From contig JACRMB010000005.1 of the NCBI GenBank assembly GCA_016235065.1, positions 270,733-334,732 on the forward strand: 64,000 nucleotides of DNA. Direction: 5' to 3'. The stretch's first letter is position 1, and each line of letters starts with the position of its first letter. Below the pieces are notes generated by a model that was not told the DNA's origin, did not search any database, and was given only the letters and a program-made list of their open reading frames with translations. This document shows, in pieces, positions 22,117 to 53,894 of this stretch. The position numbers were made by a program, and so were the translations under genes. Source of the stretch: Actinomycetota bacterium (GTDB lineage Bacteria > Actinomycetota > Thermoleophilia > BMS3ABIN01).

Positions 22117-23253
22117 ATGGTATTATTGCAGTTGGTTCGGCAAGCAGGCCGCACTACAGTGACCGCAGAGCATATCATCTTGACAACTGACTACGATTCG
22201 AGCGCCATTGCCGACCTTGTTCGGCTAGGCCAACAAGTTACAAAAACGGGCCCCGCAGGGGCTTTCAATCTACATGGGGTCAGGACCAGAGCGGAAACAA
22301 ACTCGGATGAAGTCGCTCGAGCGCTTGCAGAATTCCTGAAGGTCTTCCCGGGTAACGAATCGGATGACCCGGATATCAGAGTCCACCTCTTCATGGTGGA
22401 TTCGCTGGACAAATCAATGGGCGATGTCCCGGCAGATGCATCCATGCTGTACGACTGGGACAAGGTGAAGATTTATCACAAGGGACCACTGCGTTATCTC
22501 GAGGTAGATACGAGGGCGCGGGTAGTGGCCGATGTAGATCATCGGGTCATGGCTGGATTCGCCGAAAAGGAGCTGCTACAGTCCGACTGGCTGATCACTA
22601 ACCTTTTCTTCTATCCCCTATGGGGGCAGCTGCTAAAGGAATCGGGCTTGTTCCCGCTTCACGCGGCAGGTCTGGTAAGAGATGGAAGATCTTGCCTGTT
22701 CCTGGGCCGGAGCGGCAGTGGCAAATCGACTCTGGCATTACAGCTCGTACGAAGCGGTTTCGGCCTGCTGAGTGACGACACGGTATTTCTGCAGGAAAAG
22801 GATGGACTGATTGAAGCCCTTTCTTTCCCTGAAGACATAAATGTTACCGAGCAGACTATGAGTTTAATCCCGGAACTATCGCTGGTACAGAACTTCACAG
22901 CGAATGATCTAAGGAATAAATCATCGTTCTCAATCGAAGAACTATACCCGGATTGCGTGGTTGAAACCTCGGTCCCGGCGCTAATGGCGTTTCCGGAGAT
23001 TGCCGAGGTTGAGACATCAAGCTCAACACCGATGTCGCGCACCGAGGCGCTGGCGCTGGCGATGCGATACGGATATTTTTTCCTTGACCCGTCAACCACG
23101 GGCAGGCATTTTGAGATTTTATCGCTACTGACAAAGCAGACAAGCTGTTTTCGTCTGTATTGTGGCAGGAACCAGGGGGATCTGGGGCAGGTCGTCGACG
23201 GATTGCTGACCGCCTCACTGGCGAAAGACAAATCATCCGGCGAGAGGAAGTAA
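22117..23253 (+). CDS. HPr-kinase-like P-loop protein (lasso-peptide-cluster type)
   Basis: The C-terminal half looks like the HPr kinase fold: PLHAAGLVRDG, Walker A LGRSGSGKST (196-205) and GLLSDDTVFL (217-226) with paired acidic residues. The N-terminal 170 residues match no domain I recognise, and the HPr-kinase signature binding HPr is not evident. Such kinases occur beside PqqD and B2 proteins, and in the paeninodin lasso cluster a kinase of this type phosphorylates the precursor. The stop overlaps the next ATG by one base (TAATG), so it is coupled to the PqqD-like gene. A GTG at 22159 is an alternative start; neither start has a strong Shine-Dalgarno sequence. Substrate unknown. Confidence 0.85.
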   Translation: MVLLQLVRQAGRTTVTAEHIILTTDYDSSAIADLVRLGQQVTKTGPAGAFNLHGVRTRAETNSDEVARALAEFLKVFPGNESDDPDIRVHLFMVDSLDKSMGDVPADASMLYDWDKVKIYHKGPLRYLEVDTRARVVADVDHRVMAGFAEKELLQSDWLITNLFFYPLWGQLLKESGLFPLHAAGLVRDGRSCLFLGRSGSGKSTLALQLVRSGFGLLSDDTVFLQEKDGLIEALSFPEDINVTEQTMSLIPELSLVQNFTANDLRNKSSFSIEELYPDCVVETSVPALMAFPEIAEVETSSSTPMSRTEALALAMRYGYFFLDPSTTGRHFEILSLLTKQTSCFRLYCGRNQGDLGQVVDGLLTASLAKDKSSGERK

Positions 23254-23555
23254 TGATCGAAAAAAACAATTACCTGGTGAAGGACCACGAAGTGCTGTTC
23301 ACCTCAATGGGAGAAGATGCAGTACTCCTTCATGCCCAACGCGGCGATTATTACAGCCTTAATAAGGTTGGAGCGAGGCTATGGGTTCTGGCTGATGGCT
23401 GCAAGACCATACAGGAACTCGCTGGTCTGATCACAGAGGAATTCGATATTTCCCAGGACCAGGCTGTCCAGGATATAGTCGAACTGGCGGAGCAGTTGGA
23501 GAAAGAGGGCCTGGTGAAGGTAGTTGAAACTCCTCAGAACGATAAACAGGCTTAA
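23253..23555 (+). CDS. PqqD-family RiPP recognition element protein (lasso B1-like)
   Basis: A 100-residue winged-helix protein of the PqqD family: DHEVLFTSMGEDAVLLHAQRG, YYSLNKVGARLWVLADGCKTIQEL and a helical C-terminus ending EKEGLVKVVETP. PqqD-like domains bind leader peptides of ribosomally made peptides and present them to modifying enzymes; as a stand-alone protein before a B2 protease this matches the split B1/B2 arrangement of lasso-peptide clusters. ATG 23253 overlaps the kinase stop by one base and follows GAGAGGAAG. No candidate leader peptide is encoded within the operon. Confidence 0.88.
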   Translation: MIEKNNYLVKDHEVLFTSMGEDAVLLHAQRGDYYSLNKVGARLWVLADGCKTIQELAGLITEEFDISQDQAVQDIVELAEQLEKEGLVKVVETPQNDKQA

Positions 23556-23964
23556 GGATCCACGCGACTTCTGGCTGTTCCTGCAGATCCTGATATTGCT
23601 CGTTCTGCTCCCCAGGCAGATACGAAAGAGAAGTATGCCGGACTTGCTCGTTTCCCTCGATTCAGGTATCTCCGCCAGAACGGGCGATAGAGCGCTTCTC
23701 GATAAAACTACCGGTTTCACTGAAAGTCTTCTGCGCTATGGCATTTTCCAGCGATATGGCAAGTGCCTGCTGCGCTCTCTGGTGCTTTTCCGGTTTCTTC
23801 GTAATCAGGGCTGGCCCGTGAGCATCTACTTCGGTGTGCGGAAAACCAGCGAAGCCGGTAACGGTATAACCGGCCACAGCTGGCTGGTCCTTGACGGAGA
23901 ACCTTTTCTCGAAGATGAGAGCCAGCAGAATACTTATGTGACCACCTGGCAGTACCCTTCATGA
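23524..23964 (+). CDS. Lasso-peptide B2-like transglutaminase-fold cysteine protease
   Basis: 146 residues with the Transglut_core3 signature of lasso B2 leader peptidases: Cys81 in YGKCLLRSLVLFRFLRNQG, His118 in GHSWLVLDG and Asp124, giving a complete Cys-His-Asp triad. A hydrophobic helix (about 16-31) near the N-terminus may contact the membrane. In lasso pathways B2 cuts the leader from the precursor, which a cyclase then closes; no cyclase is present here. A TTG start at 23524 with GAAGG upstream overlaps the PqqD-like gene by 32 bases, and the 3' end overlaps the DUF2079 gene by 4 bases. Confidence 0.86.
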   Translation: MKLLRTINRLKDPRDFWLFLQILILLVLLPRQIRKRSMPDLLVSLDSGISARTGDRALLDKTTGFTESLLRYGIFQRYGKCLLRSLVLFRFLRNQGWPVSIYFGVRKTSEAGNGITGHSWLVLDGEPFLEDESQQNTYVTTWQYPS

Positions 23965-25886
23965 GTTCCCCGGCCCGGTCGAAGATCAGCCTGCCGCTAG
24001 GCGCACTTATCGTAGCAGTTTCCGGATTCTGTGCCGGTGCGGTATTCATCCCTGGGCTCATCGAATCGAGCAGTCCAAAAGCTGTAAGCACAATCCTGCC
24101 ATCGGGGATAATCGGTTCCACAGTGTACGTTCTCTTCTGGCTGGCCGTTTCGTTCCTGCTTTCGCAACACTCCGGTCAGGGACTTGGCAAGATGTCACAA
24201 CGTACGGCTGTATGGTTTTCAGCCAGCATGATGCCACTTTTGACTTACTATCCTTACCTGATCTATCGCACCGGCGTCTCAGGTGACACAGTGGAGCTTT
24301 CGCCCCTGGCCCCACGCCCGTCAGTCATATTATTACTGCTATGGTCTCTGGCACTACTGGCAGTACTTCTACGCATGACCATTGGAAAACCTGCGAGTTC
24401 GATGCTTTCGAGGTTCACGCGCCGGCCCGCTGTCACCCTGGCAGTCATGATTTGCGCCTGGATTGCCGCTTTCTTCATTCTGGATCTGCTCAAGGACCAG
24501 TATATGCATGTCACAACGATCAACAGCGCCGTCTATCGAGAGGCCATGCTGGACGTCACAGACCCCCGCGGCTTCATGTTCAGCCATTTGGCTCTAAGTG
24601 AAGGATCATCGATTTTCGGCGCGCATATGAACGTCATATTGATCTTTATCCTGCCGATCTTCCGCCTGTTCCCAGATTACAGGATGCTTTTGTTAATTTC
24701 CGATGTCGCCCTGGGACTGGCGGCAATTCCCGTTTATCTGCTGGCCCGCAGACATTTCTCCACTGCCCTGAGCTTGCTTTTTGCTGCGATGTTCCTGATG
24801 GTTCCTATCATTGCCGCTCAGCCTGGCCGTTCCGACTTTTCGGAGCTGCGGTTTTTCCCTCTGCTTTTCCTGACGACTTTCTACTTCTTCGAGACCCGGA
24901 GGTTCTGGTGGTTTACAGCAACTGCGCTGCTGCTTCTGACCATCAGAGAAGACATGGGCCTCTTTGTCGCAATATTCGGTGTCTACGCCCTGATGCGCCG
25001 CTACCCGCTGAAATGGATCTTTGCTCCGCTGATAGCAGGCTCAACCTGGTTCCTGCTCTCAGTATTGGTGCTTTTGCCTCATTTAAGCCCGACCGGCACT
25101 GCAGTCAGGTCAACGGTAAGGTATTCAGCCCTGGGGTCAAGCGGCTCTGAAATCGCCAAAACCATCCTGTTCAGACCATGGAAGTTGCTCCCGGTGGCTT
25201 TATCGACATCGTCACATATTGGCGCGGTCTTCGGCCTCCTGATCTCCTCAGGTATGGGCATTGCTTTTTTCTCTGGTGCGATCATATTCGCCTTGCCTGC
25301 CGTGGCCGAACTCCTCTTTCAGCAGACAACCAATCTGATCAATTTTATGGCCGTGCCTGCCGCTGCGACGCTCATCGTCTCTTTCTTGTATGGACTATCA
25401 CGTATAGACCGCATCTTCCATAGTTTCTGGAAAGTGGAACCAGGCAGGACGGCCGCCGTTCTCGGAGTGTTTATGTTTTTCCTTGCGCTTGCACCGTTTC
25501 ACACCTGGTTCAATCCCGATTTGTATCGTCCCCGTTATAATTACGAGGCGGCGCGTGAGGCATTCGGGATGATTCCCGACGATGCCCGAGTTCGATTGCC
25601 GGAATTCATGCTGGCGTACGCAAAGCCCGAACAGACGCTCAGCGGATTTCATCAGGCGACTTATCAGGAAGATCTGGAAGGTGGCTTCATCATAAAGGAT
25701 GATTACATTATCATAGACAGGCGAATACCAGCCCGAACTGGCGACGACCGATATTATAACGGCCTCGAAGATGTCACCGATTTTCTGATTACATCGCCAG
25801 ACTTCCGCATCATGTATGAACAGGATGACATCGCCTTATACGTCCGCAACGGATATGAGCCTGTTACCGCCAATGAAAATCGATGA
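23961..25886 (+). CDS. DUF2079 family membrane protein (GT-C-like fold)
   Basis: 641 residues with about a dozen membrane helices and a soluble C-terminal portion (about 545-641). DUF2079 features are visible: a loop after an early helix with DQYMHVTTINSAVYREAMLD and FMFSHLALSE, then GAHMNVILIFILPIFRLFPD, and the conserved LTIREDMGLFVAIFGVYALMRR. The family resembles polyprenyl-phosphate-dependent glycosyltransferases, but no reaction is established. It overlaps the B2-like and methyltransferase genes by 4 bases each, so it belongs to the same translationally coupled operon as the kinase/PqqD/B2 module. Confidence 0.84.
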   Translation: MSSPARSKISLPLGALIVAVSGFCAGAVFIPGLIESSSPKAVSTILPSGIIGSTVYVLFWLAVSFLLSQHSGQGLGKMSQRTAVWFSASMMPLLTYYPYLIYRTGVSGDTVELSPLAPRPSVILLLLWSLALLAVLLRMTIGKPASSMLSRFTRRPAVTLAVMICAWIAAFFILDLLKDQYMHVTTINSAVYREAMLDVTDPRGFMFSHLALSEGSSIFGAHMNVILIFILPIFRLFPDYRMLLLISDVALGLAAIPVYLLARRHFSTALSLLFAAMFLMVPIIAAQPGRSDFSELRFFPLLFLTTFYFFETRRFWWFTATALLLLTIREDMGLFVAIFGVYALMRRYPLKWIFAPLIAGSTWFLLSVLVLLPHLSPTGTAVRSTVRYSALGSSGSEIAKTILFRPWKLLPVALSTSSHIGAVFGLLISSGMGIAFFSGAIIFALPAVAELLFQQTTNLINFMAVPAAATLIVSFLYGLSRIDRIFHSFWKVEPGRTAAVLGVFMFFLALAPFHTWFNPDLYRPRYNYEAAREAFGMIPDDARVRLPEFMLAYAKPEQTLSGFHQATYQEDLEGGFIIKDDYIIIDRRIPARTGDDRYYNGLEDVTDFLITSPDFRIMYEQDDIALYVRNGYEPVTANENR

Positions 25887-28915: not shown

Positions 28916-30067
28916 CCGACTGGACGATCGATCAGCAACCTCCCTCATAACGCAAAAATCATAGCTGGCATCCTTTCCAGGCGCGTTCTGACCGGACCCC
29001 ATTCCGTACAGGTCAGCCTTGTCGATGCCTGCAATTACCGCTGCGTGATGTGCTGGGAGCATTCTTCAGAATTTGAAGGTTGGGGCGCTGATAACCTCTC
29101 CCGCGAGTATCACGCCGGCAAGAAGAATAAATCCACGGTCATGGATTATGACATCTATGAATCATTCGTCCGCAGCCTCCGAAGCACCGGAACCCGCGAG
29201 ATCAGCTTTGCCGGCATCGGCGAGCCTTTGCTTCATAAACGTATTGTGGACGCAGTGACACTTGCCAAGTCTCTGGGAATGAAGGTCTGGATAACAACGA
29301 ACGGCTCACTGCTCACACGTGACCTGATGACTGAACTGCTGTCGGCGGGACTCGATGATATCAATGTCAGCCTTAACGCCGGGGCCACCGAGGAATATGC
29401 CCTGGTGCATACGAACCAGGATGCCAACCGTTTCGAAGAGATAGTGAATAATCTGGTATGGCTGAAGGATCACAAACTTCATGGCGGGTTTGACACTCCA
29501 CGGGTGACGATCTCCAATGTCGTCAGCAACCTGAACAGTCACAGGGTAGTGGATATGATGGATGTTGCCGTGAAGGTCGGTGCGGTGAGCGTCACTTATC
29601 GCCCGATTGACATTTGCCCTCAAACCGAGCGCTTCGCGCTTGGTCCCGCTGACATGGAAATACTAGCCGGAGGATTCGCGGCAGCTGCCGAACTGGGTAA
29701 AAGCAAAGGGATTGGAAACAACATCGACTTTTTCTACCGGCTGCTGGCGCTTCGTGAAGCCGGTAATATCCCTTCCCCCTGTTTCGCCGGCTGGCTTTAC
29801 CCCTTTGTTCTCGCAAACGGCGATGTTACCTATTGTTGTATCAGCCGCGAAGTGCTTGGCAATCTAGAAGAGCGCAGTTTTAAAGCTATCTGGTTCGACC
29901 CCCAGCGGCGTTATCTGAACGACCAGGCCATACGAATCCACAAGACCCAGACACCCTTGCCCAAAAGCCGCTGTAGCGGCTGTGAGCTGACCCTTTCAAA
30001 TCAACGTATCTATGATCGGCTCTGGCCCTTGTGGGGCCGCCCCTGTTTCACACCTTCCTGTCCCTGA
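28916..30067 (+). CDS. Radical SAM/SPASM protein whose N-terminus lies in a shifted frame
   Basis: The frame is open from 28916 to 30067 and contains DACNYRCVMCWEHS (CxxxCxxC), IGEPLLHKR, WITTNGSLLT and a C-terminal SPASM-like cysteine set (PCFAGWLYPF, YCCISRE, KSRCSGCEL). No ATG, GTG or TTG occurs in this frame before the cluster motif; the first, GTG 29045, falls inside it. Another frame starts at ATG 28857 and reaches the A5 run at 28954-28958, where one extra A would join it to the radical SAM frame (…ITQKIIAGILSRR…). So either an indel or base-calling error, a frameshifted gene, translational slippage, or a non-standard start. Substrate unknown; the neighbours are glycan genes. Confidence 0.8.
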   Translation, partial: PTGRSISNLPHNAKIIAGILSRRVLTGPHSVQVSLVDACNYRCVMCWEHSSEFEGWGADNLSREYHAGKKNKSTVMDYDIYESFVRSLRSTGTREISFAGIGEPLLHKRIVDAVTLAKSLGMKVWITTNGSLLTRDLMTELLSAGLDDINVSLNAGATEEYALVHTNQDANRFEEIVNNLVWLKDHKLHGGFDTPRVTISNVVSNLNSHRVVDMMDVAVKVGAVSVTYRPIDICPQTERFALGPADMEILAGGFAAAAELGKSKGIGNNIDFFYRLLALREAGNIPSPCFAGWLYPFVLANGDVTYCCISREVLGNLEERSFKAIWFDPQRRYLNDQAIRIHKTQTPLPKSRCSGCELTLSNQRIYDRLWPLWGRPCFTPSCP

Positions 30068-35408: not shown

Positions 35409-36647
35409 TTGGCAAGACTGTCTCCAGAGCACGAATTAATACTCGCCTGCGCAAGGAGTACCTTGGATGACAGCCAGACGTTCAAGGCAAAGCGTCTGTT
35501 GCAGGAGCAGATCGACTGGCCTCGATTGCTCGATCTGACAAACCGCCACCTGGTTACTCCCCTCGTATTTCATTATCTTGATTCCGCCGGGCTCGTCGAT
35601 GCTGTTCCACCTGACATTCTTGCGAGAATGCGTCATTTCACAGTCGCGAATCTCGCACGTAATATGCAGCGTTATGCGGAACTGAACCGCATCCTGGATT
35701 CTTTCACCGCCAGCGACATACCGGTCGTTGTCCTAAAGGGAGCAGCCCTGGCAAAGACGGTTTACGCAGATGAAAGCTTACGCCAGTTCGGAGATATCGA
35801 TGTACTTATACCTCGCGATGGCCTGGCTAGAGCAAAAGCAATCATGATCGAATCGGGTTACACCCTTCTCAAGGACAATTATCCTGTTCCCGATCACCTC
35901 AACGAAGAGCTTGGTTGCGAATGGACTTATTACAATTCGACCACAGTCATGGAGATCCACTGGAACCTGATTGACCTTAAGGCTCCGTTTAATCTGGACC
36001 CACCTGGAATGATCGAGCGATCGATCCCGCTTTTATTGAATGATCACAAAGCATTGGCGCTGTCGCCTGAGGACGAGCTCATTCATCTGTGCATCCATCA
36101 GTACAAGCACCACTGGCAACAGCTTCGGGACCTTTGTGATATTTCAGAGCTTCTGCGCTACCACGATGTTTCACTTGACTGGAGTCAGACTCTTGTTCGC
36201 TCGTCTGAAGTCGGTGCCGACAGATGCCTTTTTTATACTCTTCTACTCTCAAAACGTTTACTTGACGCACCCGTTCCTGACGACGTCATCTCGATTCTTT
36301 CTCAACGCGTCAGTCCGGGTGTTATTTCCAGGAGTATCTTCGATCTGATTGAAAAGAGCACCCTGACATTCGACTCACCCCATGGCTTCTGGCCGTTAAT
36401 ACTCGTTAAAGGCTTTTCCGCCAAGGTACAGCTCGTCAGGGAAACTTTCATTCATGAGAACAACATCGGCGAGGGCAAGACAGAGGAACCATCAGACAAG
36501 AATAAGAATATTTTACAAACCCCCACCCGTGTAGTATTACGTATGGTACGTTCACTGATGGCTTACAGAAATCTGGTGTGGATATTGTTCGTCAATCTTT
36601 CCAGGAATGTTTCCAAGAAGTTCCCTGCGTCACGGCGACGCGGCTGA
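35409..36647 (+). CDS. Nucleotidyltransferase family protein (NTP_transf_5-like)
   Basis: 412 residues. The nucleotidyltransferase motif is VVLKGAALAKTVYADESLRQFGDIDVLI (as seen near 107-134), with catalytic acidic residues Asp129 and Asp131; TTVMEIHWNLID gives the third acidic position and ELIHLCIHQYKHHWQQLRDLCDI a helical His-rich segment. Proteins of this family recur beside PqqD, HPr-kinase-like and lasso-B2-like genes in surface-polysaccharide loci, and that module lies 12 kb to the left. Reaction and target are unknown. The TTG start at 35409 follows AAGGA at nine bases; no ATG fits. Confidence 0.84.
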   Translation: MARLSPEHELILACARSTLDDSQTFKAKRLLQEQIDWPRLLDLTNRHLVTPLVFHYLDSAGLVDAVPPDILARMRHFTVANLARNMQRYAELNRILDSFTASDIPVVVLKGAALAKTVYADESLRQFGDIDVLIPRDGLARAKAIMIESGYTLLKDNYPVPDHLNEELGCEWTYYNSTTVMEIHWNLIDLKAPFNLDPPGMIERSIPLLLNDHKALALSPEDELIHLCIHQYKHHWQQLRDLCDISELLRYHDVSLDWSQTLVRSSEVGADRCLFYTLLLSKRLLDAPVPDDVISILSQRVSPGVISRSIFDLIEKSTLTFDSPHGFWPLILVKGFSAKVQLVRETFIHENNIGEGKTEEPSDKNKNILQTPTRVVLRMVRSLMAYRNLVWILFVNLSRNVSKKFPASRRRG

Positions 36648-37464: not shown

Positions 37465-38973
37465 CTAGTTAGGGAAATTATATACGTTGCCGGCGTTATC
37501 AATCCCGGATCCACGCATATAGACTCGAAAACTGGTAACGCCTGAGGGAATATAGTACTTCATGGTAAATGTAGTCGCGCCTCCAGGAGAGAAGTCTCCA
37601 ATAGGCAACGGGAGTTCCTGCGCAACATCTACACCGTTGCTCAAATCAACTCCATCGATGTTGACACCCCGCACGGCCCCATTGCCTGTATTTGTGATGG
37701 TGAAGTCATTGGACATATTCCTGGAAAGATAATCAGAGTAGCTGCTCCAGTATGAATTTTGCGATCCAAGCCGCAGATTCACCGTTGTATTTGTTTCCAG
37801 GTATGTCTTCAGCTTCTGGAAGGAAGGCTTTGGTTCATAAAGATAGTGGCCGGTGGGTACGCCATCGCCGTATTTGTCAGAGTATAAAAGTCCAAACCCC
37901 GACTCTTTGTCTGACGAACTGTACCAGGCGCGATCCATCACACGGAACAGGGTAAAGACCTCGACGGACGGATAACGCGTTTTGACTGTTTCCAGCGCGT
38001 CGATCATATAATCTCCCTGCTGGGATTCCGTTAACTTCCAGGAGCTGTCCCCAGTGGTCGTCCATCCTGCTTCAGTTATCCAGATAGGCTTGGCCGTGTC
38101 ACCATTAGCGTCCATTATCTGCCGCACGATGCCTATTTTGGCAAACACCCAAGAAAGGCTGGGCTTTTGATTATTGGTATAAGGGTGCAGGTTCGCCCGA
38201 TCAAAGAACGGGCCTCCCCCGTTTGCGTAAACAGTACTAATATACTGGTCTGACCATAATGCAATCGGGCCGCCCATTATGATCACACTGTCTGGATTAG
38301 CCTCTTTAGCGCGGCGGTATGCTGTCTTAAGCATATATGTATAACCTACAGCGCGCTGCTGGATCGAAGTCTGATCGCCTGTTATCCAGTTCCAGTCCGG
38401 TTCAGACCATATCTCCCAATAATCGATACGGCCCTTGTAGCGCCCGACGACGTCATAGACGAAATTACCATAATCCTCGACAAACTTCTGAAATTCAGGA
38501 TTATTCGGATCGCCATTACCTGGTATAAAGATACTGTTGCTGTTGCCGTTGGCCCATGAAGGCGAATTGTACAACATCCCGTAAGTGGTAATGCCTCGCT
38601 GTCTGCCCATCGCCTCTACTTTGTCCAGCAGGCTGATGGCTCCCGGATCCAAACCGGACTGCCCATCGCCCGGTCTTGTGGGCTGCCAGTCTTTCCAGGA
38701 GATCCACTCGTGATGCCAGGAGATGCCAAGCTCCTGCATTCTATCCATGCCGGTGCGAGCCATTGCCTCCTTTGTTCCAAACTGGTCATCGCTACCCCAG
38801 GCGTATGGTTCGCCAACACCAACTTCAACAGCCAAAGCAGGCGCAGTCGAATAAAGAACTGAAGCAAAAAACAGGCAGGAAACTATCAAGAACTTGCGCA
38901 GCAACTGTACCGACTCCCCATTGGTAGCTAGGCTGCCTCCCCCGAGGCCCTTGGCTTTGCGTCCCCACCTCAC
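37465..38973 (-). CDS. Secreted clan-A glycoside hydrolase (PslG/GH39-like)
   Basis: 502 residues. A signal peptide (about 25-48, cleavage after TAPALA) precedes a TIM barrel with the clan-A pair: acid/base Glu191 in YWEIWSEPDW and nucleophile Glu301 in WITEAGW. LGISWHHEWISWKDWQP and ANLHPYTNN are further family signals. The last 100 residues form a β-rich domain (NDFTITNTGNGAVRGVNI) like those that bind carbohydrate or the cell surface. In Pseudomonas the analogous PslG is a periplasmic endoglycosidase tied to its polysaccharide locus. By analogy this enzyme probably cuts the polymer made here; the linkage is unknown. Confidence 0.86.
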   Translation of the reverse strand: MRWGRKAKGLGGGSLATNGESVQLLRKFLIVSCLFFASVLYSTAPALAVEVGVGEPYAWGSDDQFGTKEAMARTGMDRMQELGISWHHEWISWKDWQPTRPGDGQSGLDPGAISLLDKVEAMGRQRGITTYGMLYNSPSWANGNSNSIFIPGNGDPNNPEFQKFVEDYGNFVYDVVGRYKGRIDYWEIWSEPDWNWITGDQTSIQQRAVGYTYMLKTAYRRAKEANPDSVIIMGGPIALWSDQYISTVYANGGGPFFDRANLHPYTNNQKPSLSWVFAKIGIVRQIMDANGDTAKPIWITEAGWTTTGDSSWKLTESQQGDYMIDALETVKTRYPSVEVFTLFRVMDRAWYSSSDKESGFGLLYSDKYGDGVPTGHYLYEPKPSFQKLKTYLETNTTVNLRLGSQNSYWSSYSDYLSRNMSNDFTITNTGNGAVRGVNIDGVDLSNGVDVAQELPLPIGDFSPGGATTFTMKYYIPSGVTSFRVYMRGSGIDNAGNVYNFPN

Positions 38974-39126
38974 AGTGGGTTTGCCCTTTCTTGGAGCTAT
39001 TAGTGATATCGGAGCAGATTAGGTTATCATTAAATAGCCCAATTCCTGATGAAAACGCAGGCTTATCCTTCAATAAATCAGTATCGGCCGAAAGACAAAT
39101 TTGAAATTGTACGAAATGACAGGCCC

Positions 39127-50421: not shown

Positions 50422-52107
50422 CTATAGATAACCTAAATCCTCAAGCCGCTTTCGAACTTCATCCTCATCGTCCTGAGTATACACAGGTTCACTGTCTCTT
50501 TTCTGTTTTTTCCCGTATTCTTCATCTCCAGACTCGACTGGCGCTGCGCCACCACCCATAGCCTCCTCCAGGATACGGCCATCCCAGTTCTCATGCGATG
50601 GCAAACCCAGCAAGTTCATGACCGTGGGGGCAATATCGACCATCTGAGCGATACCGAGATCGCGATGTGCTATGTCAGGTCCATTGATCAGCAGTATTCC
50701 CTCCAACCTGTGAGTCCCTGAGTGGGCGAGCTGCTTCCATTCCTGAACAGGAGGTCGAACGATAGCCTCTTCTGCCAGCTCCGAGGCTGTGCCTATGACC
50801 GGACAGTAAGACCAATCACGAAAATTAATCACCATATCCGGTATCTCCGTCAGCAGCGGACCATGATAAAGCTCTTCCCTTCGATAAATCCTTGTTACCA
50901 AGGATTTCATGTCTTGGGGATCCTTCAGCTCAGTCAGAACAGCTTCCGCCTCACGAAGAACCGCCTGCCTTTCGTCTTCACTACCGACCGTTCCCATAGG
51001 ATTGCGACCTTTCAGGTTGATATACAGACTGCCAAATCCACCTATGGAACATATTTTCGTGTGACTCCAGTCGATATCAGCGATCAGAACATCGACATAC
51101 GACATCCAACGATTGTCAGCAATACCCTTACCCAGAAAACTTTTGATCTTCTGTTTGGATTGAACAGGTATGTGGGCGCGAAGTTTCTTGCTGAGATATG
51201 CACGACTGCGCTTGCGGCTGCTGACAGTCTTGAATTTGAGCAGACCGCCGCCGGCCAGTATGCGATTAACGCAAATATGACCACGTAACCGTCCAAAACC
51301 GTGGTCGGACATTATGAACGTATTTCGCTCAAGACTCCCTGATGAGACAAGCTGCCCCAGTTTGCGGTCGATGATCTCATAACAGCTGAAGACCGCCTCG
51401 GCTCGCCTCTGCTCGTCCGCGGAGACCTGCACTCCACTCATCACCTTCTCAGCATCACCCCAGAGCGTGTGCTGGAATATATCCGTTGATCTGATGACGG
51501 CGACAAAAAGATCCCAATCTTCCAATTTTGCAAGGTAGTCAATGACCCTTAATTCCATGTCCAGGTAAGCTGTGGCACGCTCTATCCATTCGCCCACAGG
51601 ATCCTTGTGATGGGTCACAAGATACTTTGCATCGTTTTCGAATGATATCTTGAAGTCAGGAATCGCCTCCAAAAGCCTGCTTTTTTCCTCAAGCGGATAA
51701 ATCGCCTTATCATTAAAACTTGGAGCGTCCAGGCCTGAGATCAGGATGCCATTGACTGGAACCGCCGGGTAGGTAACAGGAACGTTGTAAACGCATACCC
51801 TCTTGCCCTTGCTGCTTGCGAGGGTCCAGATGGGCTCACCTTCAAGATTGCCTGCATTCATCGGTTCCAGCTGATATGTGCCAGCACGGAACTTGAACAG
51901 ATCAGATGCTCCGGTCTTGCCAGGATTGGTTCCGGTATAGAAAGATGCCCATGCGGGCCAGGTGAGCGGGGGTGTTGTGGAATGAAGCGTCGCGCGGCTG
52001 CCCGCTTCCATCAACTTTGCAAGATTTGGCAGCCGCCCTTTGCCAACAAGATGATCAATAACAGAAAAAGTGCCGCCATCCAGACCGATTACACAGACTT
52101 TTGACAA
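50422..52107 (-). CDS. Alkaline-phosphatase-superfamily protein, long form 1
   Basis: 561 residues. VCVIGLDGGTFSVIDHLVG gives the first metal Asp; the nucleophile Thr lies in TPPLTWPAWASFYTGTNPGKTG; STDIFQHTLWGD and FIMSDHGFGRLRGHICVN give further metal ligands; HSGTHRLEGILLINGPDI supplies the last His. A variable acidic linker leads to the C-terminal DDEDEVRKRLEDLGYL. It matches its neighbour at 52209-53894 in length and along the whole sequence, so the two are a tandem duplication. The start is TTG, whereas the paralogue with the same first residues uses ATG. No signal peptide. Substrate unknown; context suggests a phosphorylated lipid-linked glycan. Confidence 0.87.
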   Translation of the reverse strand: MSKVCVIGLDGGTFSVIDHLVGKGRLPNLAKLMEAGSRATLHSTTPPLTWPAWASFYTGTNPGKTGASDLFKFRAGTYQLEPMNAGNLEGEPIWTLASSKGKRVCVYNVPVTYPAVPVNGILISGLDAPSFNDKAIYPLEEKSRLLEAIPDFKISFENDAKYLVTHHKDPVGEWIERATAYLDMELRVIDYLAKLEDWDLFVAVIRSTDIFQHTLWGDAEKVMSGVQVSADEQRRAEAVFSCYEIIDRKLGQLVSSGSLERNTFIMSDHGFGRLRGHICVNRILAGGGLLKFKTVSSRKRSRAYLSKKLRAHIPVQSKQKIKSFLGKGIADNRWMSYVDVLIADIDWSHTKICSIGGFGSLYINLKGRNPMGTVGSEDERQAVLREAEAVLTELKDPQDMKSLVTRIYRREELYHGPLLTEIPDMVINFRDWSYCPVIGTASELAEEAIVRPPVQEWKQLAHSGTHRLEGILLINGPDIAHRDLGIAQMVDIAPTVMNLLGLPSHENWDGRILEEAMGGGAAPVESGDEEYGKKQKRDSEPVYTQDDEDEVRKRLEDLGYL

Positions 52108-52208: not shown

Positions 52209-53894
52209 TTACAGGTACCCCAGGTTTTCCAGACGCTTTCGTATTTCTTCCTCATCTTCCTGGGAATATACCTGATCATCCCCTGCTTTCACGTCGGCCT
52301 GAATGAACTCATTTTCTGCTGCTAAGTCGGGTGCGTCCATATCAAGCGCCTGCTCAAGCGCGTGCCCATCCCATTCACGGAGAGAAGGAAGACCCATGAG
52401 GCGCATGATTGTCGGCGCAACGTCTACCATCTGAACCGTGCCAATTTCACCGTCCGCAATATCTGGTCCACCCATGATCAGCATTCCCTCGAGTCTGTGC
52501 GTGCCGGTATGGCCAAGCTGCTTCCATTCAGTTGCCTGAGAGCGGAAGATTGATTTTTCGGCAAGTTCGATAGCAGTGCTGGTGATTCCCCTGTATGACC
52601 AGTTGCGCATATTCACTACCATGTCAGGCATAGTCTTCATCAGCGGCCCGTTGTAGAGTTCCTCTTTCCGGTAGAAGTCCGAAACTACAGGCACGCCATC
52701 CTCGGGATCGACCAGTTGTGAGAGGGCGGCTTCTGCCTCACTCAACACCGCCTGTCTTTCCGCTTCGCCAGCAACGATACCCATGGGGTCCCGGCCTTTC
52801 AGGTTCACGAACAGGCAGCCGTGCTGGGCTATCGATGAGATGCGGGTCCGACTCCAGTCGATATCGGCCACTAGGGAATCAACAAACAAGTGCCAGCGCT
52901 TGTCGGTATTATCCTTACCCAGCAGGCGCTTTATCTTCTTTCTGGTTTCAACCGTCATCCGGTCCTGTAATACTTTTTTGAAATAATCTCTGGAGCGGTT
53001 CCTTCGACTGCCTGGCAGAAACTTGAGCAGGCCTGCGTCCTCAAGCACCCTGTTTAGACATATATCGCTACGCAATTTTCCAAAACCATGGTCCGACATG
53101 AATATGAGATTGCGATCAGCGCTCCAGGAAGACCAGGTCTTTCCCAACTCACGGTCAATCACCTTGTAACAGTTAAAAACCGCTTCGGCCCGCTGGGCCT
53201 CTTCAGGTGAGACTGGCTCGCCTTTGATCACCTTTTCTGTGTCCTTCCAGAAAATGTGCTGGAAGCTGTCTGTCGATCTGATGACACCGACAAAAAGGTC
53301 CCAGTCTTCCAATCCCATCAGGTGATTGATTGCCTTGATTTCCATGTCAAGATGCGATGTCAGCATCTCAATATAATCAGCAGCAGGTTGCGGGCTGTGA
53401 TTTGCCAGGTACTTTATGTCGATCTCAGTAGAGATCTTGAAATTGGGAACCGCGGCTAAAAAACTTTCTTTTTTCTCCAGTGGATAAATAGCCTGGTCAT
53501 CAAAACTGGGAGCGTCCATACCGGAAATCAGGATTCCATTGACTGGTTTAGCGGGGTAGGTCACCGGAACGTTGAAGACGCAAACACGCTTTCCGTGGCT
53601 GCTGGCCAAGGACCAGATAGGTGTCCCCTGAAGATTGCCGGCATTCATCGGCTCGAGCTGATATGTTCCAGCTCGGAATTTAAAGAATCCGATAGCCCCG
53701 GTCTTTCCCGGATTGGAACCTGTAAAAAATGAGGACCATGCTGCAGGCGTCAAGGGCGGCGTTGTTGAAAGTAAATTCCCATGGCTGCCATCAGCCATCA
53801 AACGGGCAAAATTCGGTAATTGCTTTTGCCCTATCAAATAGTCGATTACTGCAAATGTCCCCCCGTCCAAACCGATAACGCAGACTTTTGACAT
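52209..53894 (-). CDS. Alkaline-phosphatase-superfamily protein, long form 2
   Basis: 561 residues, closely similar throughout to the protein at 50422-52107: VCVIGLDGGTFAVIDYLIG, TPPLTPAAWSSFFTGSNPGKTG (nucleophile Thr), STDSFQHIFWKD, FMSDHGFGKLRSDICLN, HTGTHRLEGMLIMGGPDI and the tail EDEEEIRKRLENLGYL. ATG 53894 follows AAGGA. It lies 33 bases after the flippase gene upstream, and 101 bases separate it from the next paralogue; that gap holds nothing recognisable. Same likely chemistry as its paralogue. Confidence 0.87.
   Translation of the reverse strand: MSKVCVIGLDGGTFAVIDYLIGQKQLPNFARLMADGSHGNLLSTTPPLTPAAWSSFFTGSNPGKTGAIGFFKFRAGTYQLEPMNAGNLQGTPIWSLASSHGKRVCVFNVPVTYPAKPVNGILISGMDAPSFDDQAIYPLEKKESFLAAVPNFKISTEIDIKYLANHSPQPAADYIEMLTSHLDMEIKAINHLMGLEDWDLFVGVIRSTDSFQHIFWKDTEKVIKGEPVSPEEAQRAEAVFNCYKVIDRELGKTWSSWSADRNLIFMSDHGFGKLRSDICLNRVLEDAGLLKFLPGSRRNRSRDYFKKVLQDRMTVETRKKIKRLLGKDNTDKRWHLFVDSLVADIDWSRTRISSIAQHGCLFVNLKGRDPMGIVAGEAERQAVLSEAEAALSQLVDPEDGVPVVSDFYRKEELYNGPLMKTMPDMVVNMRNWSYRGITSTAIELAEKSIFRSQATEWKQLGHTGTHRLEGMLIMGGPDIADGEIGTVQMVDVAPTIMRLMGLPSLREWDGHALEQALDMDAPDLAAENEFIQADVKAGDDQVYSQEDEEEIRKRLENLGYL

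Follow-up and report, generated by a model that had tools for sequence, protein, structure and literature searches.

A cyclase-free module of HprK-like kinase, PqqD and lasso-type B2 peptidase is proposed to mature scattered precursor peptides in uncultured Thermoleophilia

An HprK-like kinase, a stand-alone PqqD protein and a lasso-type B2 leader peptidase, encoded together in a member of an uncultured Thermoleophilia family, probably form one trans-acting maturation unit for about 11 short precursor peptides that are scattered over the genome, as judged from sequence comparison. The genes lie in a 64,000-nucleotide stretch (the window) of contig JACRMB010000005.1 (positions 270,733 to 334,732, forward strand; assembly GCA_016235065.1). 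The source genome is a draft of 2.37 Mb in 10 contigs and is 98.9% complete. It was compared with the other members of its family, 19 genomes in all. The evidence is comparative throughout, and the genomes are drafts of uncultured organisms; matching records are metagenome-assembled (Thermoleophilia/Actinomycetes), several of subsurface or marine project origin. An earlier, sequence-only reading of the locus, in which recognition and cutting proteins without cyclase or precursor act on some other substrate, is partly supported.

The module comprises the kinase (22117-23253), the PqqD protein (23253-23555) and B2 (23524-23964), all on the plus strand. The TAA stop codon of the kinase and the ATG of PqqD overlap by 1 base, and the PqqD and B2 genes, the latter starting with TTG, overlap by 32 bases. 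Coordinates and family models thus agree with the arrangement read previously. A further gene, left out of the module at that time, encodes a DUF2079 membrane protein (23961-25886, plus strand). It is coupled to B2 by ATGA and adjoins B2 in most, not all, family genomes; the DUF2079 family is GT-C-like. In the window, the module is located within a glycosyltransferase-rich surface-glycan cluster. An NTP_transf_5 nucleotidyltransferase gene (35409-36647, plus strand) is found about 11.4 kb downstream of B2; few of the family loci have such a gene close to the module. A radical SAM/SPASM protein (29045-30067, plus strand), whose open frame of 383 aa suggests that the annotated start could be too far downstream, is encoded by 7 of the 15 family genomes examined for it. 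It was dropped as a module partner because it is not universal, being absent from a 98% complete genome (G008). The glycan cluster also encodes tandem type I phosphodiesterase/nucleotide pyrophosphatase-like proteins (50422-52107 and 52209-53894, minus strand).

The arrangement is conserved at the family level. B2 was detected in 16 of the 19 family genomes (the source genome and 15 of 18 others), and the module adjoins hemW at nearly all family B2 loci. Kinase and PqqD precede B2 at every family locus with enough contig. The exception is G016 (L041), where neither was seen. PqqD is the most conserved protein (65-91% identity across the family), compared with 46-80% for the kinase and 53-69% for B2. 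The glycan neighbors vary among genera while kinase, PqqD and B2 remain constant. Conservation of the block across the family indicates that the arrangement is not due to chance.

The kinase matches HprK_rel_A (E=1e-14), far below the cut-off of that model. Its Walker A motif is found at residues 196-205, as previously read, and H182, K203, D220 and D221 are invariant in 14 family sequences. Lasso kinases require a catalytic His-Lys-Asp-Asp set (PMC9266682). Since the catalytic residues are intact, phosphorylation of a peptide core by this enzyme is plausible. The PqqD protein (PF05402, E=2e-17) represents a stand-alone RRE (B1), with TbiB1 and PbaB1 as its nearest solved relatives. N37 and D74, positions placed by alignment offset, are invariant in the family, and the corresponding Asn and Asp of LppB hold a YxxP-type leader (PMC13381572).

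The B2 protein matches PF13471 (E=1e-14) and the NCBIfam model NF033537 (lasso_biosyn_B2), for which it scores 44.3 bits at a cut-off of 33. Of the intact Cys81-His118-Asp124 triad proposed earlier, Cys81 and His118 are invariant in 16 family B2 proteins. Residue 124, in contrast, varies (D/A/E/S/N), and the invariant acid is Glu130, located twelve residues past His118. McjB has Asp at this position. Outside the family, three lasso clusters have Glu here, which is not general in others. From the alignment, Glu130 is likely the catalytic acid of B2. A fold search returned weak matches to transglutaminase-like cysteine proteases, none of them significant. The source genome holds only one B2 and one PqqD.

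A lasso cyclase, missing near the module in the sequence-only reading, was not found by a profile search of the whole source genome. PF00733 matches four places there, three AsnB proteins and LarE, none of them near the module. The three AsnB proteins exceed the TIGR01536 asparagine-synthase cut-off and fall below the lasso-cyclase cut-off. This whole-genome search covered the source genome only; in the rest of the family, a lasso cyclase is absent from all 17 module loci read, and in none of the family loci is a cyclase together with a typical precursor linked to the three genes. Elsewhere in the source genome, in another glycan cluster, a tandem AsnB-like pair is flanked by two tail-domain genes (see below); its second member (L004:781-2673 on contig C9) starts with MSGI and has no glutaminase Cys.

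Likewise, searches agree that the window contains no precursor. No small precursor is conserved at the family loci up to about 10 kb from the module; a precursor inside the module locus was rejected as none is conserved, and no convincing radical-SAM-type precursor (A3) was found in the family. The lasso leader model NF033521 matched small ORFs in family genomes above its cut-off, with 0 of 14 control genomes above it. From these ORFs, a profile of 29 columns (A4) was built after reading. It identifies 11 precursors in the source genome and 4-12 in each of the 19 family genomes. Outside the family, a single marginal match was obtained among 41 class relatives, and 293 phylum genomes gave none. 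The genome-wide search suggested in the sequence-only reading thus yielded the most likely alternative substrate: peptides that carry a YxxPxL-type leader and are encoded away from the module.

The precursor consensus is YxKPxLxxhxNLkdITfECPxWQCSVxVPPPP, and an example sequence is MTAKKNDHREPYAKPELVRHDNLKDITFECPQWQCSVVVPPPPA. The leader, YxKPxLxxxxNLxxIT, is of the lasso/LPP type (YxxPxL, with Thr 15 residues after Tyr; for LPP see below), and the core carries a near-invariant W-x-C-S with a conserved Ser. The common core, ECPxWQCSVxVPPPP, has no Asp or Glu at positions 7-9 and hence no lasso ring acid. In the commonest core of the source genome, FECPQWQCSVVVPPPPA, Ser is the sole hydroxyl residue. 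Eight of the 11 source-genome precursors share the core (F/Y)ECP(Q/E)WQCSV(V/S)VPP(P/A)P(S)A; the remainder have different or His/Asp/Gly-rich tails. Some precursors exceed the NF033521 cut-off, and the commonest type is matched by no Pfam or NCBIfam model. A plausible Shine-Dalgarno site precedes the ATG in most of them, and the precursor at L148 has no clear start codon. Close copies differ mostly by silent changes. Core position 5 is genome-specific (p=0.0004), and homogenization of the whole core within genomes is not significant (p=0.12). At L163:6813-7402, two tandem precursors with Ser/Asp-rich tails (DSSSDSSS) are encoded, a possible multi-phosphorylation substrate.

The precursors lie outside the operon of the module, which counts against the proposed trans-acting unit. 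The same holds for three family genomes (69%, 78% and 92% complete, two of them clearly incomplete) that contain precursors with B2 undetected, and for the G016 locus, where kinase and PqqD were not seen next to B2. A candidate exporter was likewise not found. The family-wide co-occurrence of module and precursors represents a single lineage and is therefore statistically weak. Stand-alone precursors hold their position across genera, for example beside hemC in five genomes (G000, G001, G002, G006 and G010).

Many precursors are found next to genes for secreted proteins that share a C-terminal domain of about 105 aa. In the window, a secreted glycosidase-like protein (37465-38973, minus strand) ends in this Ig-like tail domain (37465-37782), of which the source genome has about 37-39 copies (39 profile matches). 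Among 60 genomes searched, every family genome contains 11-39 copies and none of the 41 class relatives has any. The domain is located at the extreme C-terminus and is predicted to form an Ig-like sandwich (mean pLDDT 93), with no significant structural match in the PDB. Its carriers are unrelated, including ethylbenzene-dehydrogenase-like, rhodanese, multihaem cytochrome, GH26 and Ig-repeat proteins, and all are secreted. By itself, the tail domain is a candidate for a sorting or attachment function.

Seven of the 11 source-genome precursors start 48-125 bp downstream of the end of a tail domain on the same strand, where chance would place about 0.01 of 11 (about 38 domains in 2.37 Mb). For an eighth, the tail-domain gene comes after it. 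Typically but not always, a precursor follows such a gene: 4 of the 11 do not, most tail-domain genes have no precursor, and a manual tally over eleven genomes places 24 of 41 precursors directly downstream of one. The tail-domain gene in the window is preceded by a c-di-GMP-I-GGC riboswitch (38919-38994, minus strand). The riboswitch encloses the GTG at 38973 that is listed as the start, so the gene probably begins further downstream. A riboswitch of the c-di-GMP-I type is also found before a tail-domain gene at five other family loci (L032, L033, L035, L039 and L042), suggesting surface or biofilm control of the tail-domain locus. No c-di-GMP riboswitch was found at the precursor operons elsewhere in the source genome.

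In the proposed pathway, PqqD would bind the YxxP leader of the scattered precursors, the kinase would phosphorylate the core Ser, and cleavage by B2 at the conserved Thr (after T or T-x) would free a peptide of 16-17 residues. A linear product is expected, as the pathway lacks a cyclase and the common core a ring acid. All three steps are established in relatives, namely binding of YxxP by the RRE, phosphorylation of Ser by the kinase and leader cleavage at the conserved Thr (PMC13381572). In lasso peptides, the leader Thr is penultimate (PMC10368454). The peptide would then be exported and act at the cell surface as a partner or tether of tail-domain proteins. This surface role is more weakly inferred, the most economical guess and no more, and is proposed because most precursors follow tail-domain genes and the unit lies in a surface-glycan cluster. 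Extended further, a trans-made phosphorylated, possibly sugar-linked peptide might serve dozens of tail-domain proteins as a common tether or docking partner. Such a surface-display system, rather doubtful at present, would by analogy resemble LPXTG, PEP-CTERM or T9SS sorting in its logic, with a RiPP-type peptide as anchor.

A substantial possibility is that maturation proceeds as proposed but yields a free peptide with a signalling, metal-binding or antimicrobial role, the adjacency to tail-domain genes reflecting only shared regulation or hitchhiking. No tie between LPPs or paeninodins and a particular secreted protein is known (PMC13381572), a minority of the precursors are encoded singly next to housekeeping genes, and some tails are His/Asp-rich. 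The adjacency and order of tail-domain gene and precursor, however, recur in different genera, with tail-domain proteins whose catalytic parts are unrelated, and cores near-identical within a genome argue against antimicrobial diversification.

Far less probable are two other explanations. The products could be true lasso peptides whose cyclase was missed, being divergent or lost in the draft assembly: the lasso leader model matches the precursors, B1, B2 and kinase correspond to the lasso set, and other parts of the phylum do have cyclase-bearing lasso clusters. This is very unlikely, as a genome that is 98.9% complete yields only AsnB and LarE matches, the 17 family loci have no cyclase and the common core lacks Asp/Glu at positions 7-9. 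There is similarly a slim chance that the surface glycan or a glycan-linked protein is the direct target of modification by the module and that the scattered peptides use another maturase. Its setting in a glycosyltransferase-rich cluster and its coupling to the DUF2079 membrane protein point in this direction, but just one PqqD and one B2 are available for 11 leader-bearing precursors, and the kinase-PqqD-B2 block stays while the glycan neighbors change between genera. A glycan-linked surface protein as direct substrate, also raised in the sequence-only reading, is unsupported beyond this neighborhood.

Among known systems, the proposed trans-acting unit resembles the Linear Polyphosphorylated Peptides (LPP) of Bacillota (Popov et al. 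2026, PMC13381572) in its discrete YxxP-type RRE, HprK-like kinase, capsular-polysaccharide surroundings and lack of a cyclase. The leader register is also shared (Tyr, Pro at +3, L/V at +5, often His at +8, Thr at +15). In contrast, the LPP protease is the signal-peptidase-I-like LppS instead of a lasso-type B2, the LPP cluster includes an MsbA-like exporter and an NTP transferase, neither of which is in the operon here, phosphorylation is at Ser3 whereas the Ser here is at core position 8-9, and 1-3 precursors are encoded in the cluster compared with about 11 scattered ones. Paeninodin and pseudomycoidin pathways share B1, B2, the HprK-like kinase, NTP_transf_5 in the neighborhood and a lasso-type leader; nucleotidyltransferases of this type decorate phosphorylated lasso peptides such as pseudomycoidin (PMC9266682). 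The system described here differs from them in lacking a cyclase and, in the common core, the ring acid, in a Ser that is not C-terminal, in a YxxP instead of a WxxP leader and in trans-encoded precursors. The HPr-rel-A system (TIGR04352/TIGR04353) and the SynChlorMet cassette likewise place an HprK-related kinase beside a PqqD-like chaperone, but all models remain far below their cut-offs (kinase TIGR04352, 53.9 of 200 bits; PqqD TIGR04353, 17.2 of 35 bits) and no universal radical SAM partner is found here.

Lasso features present are B1 (RRE), the B2 leader peptidase and a precursor with a YxxPxL...T leader; the macrolactam cyclase and Asp/Glu at core position 7-9 are lacking. As some defining LPP features (the signal-peptidase-like protease, and an exporter and NTP transferase in the cluster) and these two defining lasso features are not found, the system is regarded as a variant of phosphorylated leader-guided peptide pathways and a member of neither group. 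The literature yielded no further instance of the same arrangement beyond LPP. A related kind of pathway has been known since 2026, and the B2-based arrangement with trans-encoded precursors is new.

B2 is sporadic across the phylum (39 of 297 genomes), and other families contain the module with and without a cyclase. Among about 35 non-family loci, roughly a dozen are of the lasso type, with an Asn-synthase-like gene, and about 17 encode kinase, PqqD and B2 with no such gene within the fetched stretch. Cyclase-free loci with B2, PqqD and kinase (plus NTP_transf_5) include L097, L101-L104, L106-L108, L110, L117, L120 and L121. In these, the module is accompanied by a radical SAM/SPASM gene, and the 50-aa precursor encoded with it (YEKPxMxVMRINRFFFGGCQxxWPNCYS...CR) is matched by no NCBIfam or Pfam model. 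In one family, this gene and the precursor come after the module. Two further loci (L098:4031-7230 and L099:7124-10323) combine kinase, PqqD, B2 and NTP_transf_5 with a precursor of lasso-leader type (RYEAPRLMVYGRVEEITLHGRGHPPFG...); the 15-20 kb fetched there contain no cyclase. Cyclase-free use of the module thus recurs in other families, accompanied by precursors.

The findings indicate that pathways without a cyclase can employ a lasso-type B2 together with its RRE and kinase, and that a single unit of this kind can work in trans on numerous dispersed precursors, which for this reason are missed by cluster-based RiPP mining. They also connect RiPP chemistry with the secreted tail-domain proteins, a large set not described before. 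As the peptide family and the tail domain can now each be searched for by profile, the purpose of linear phosphorylated RiPPs becomes testable.
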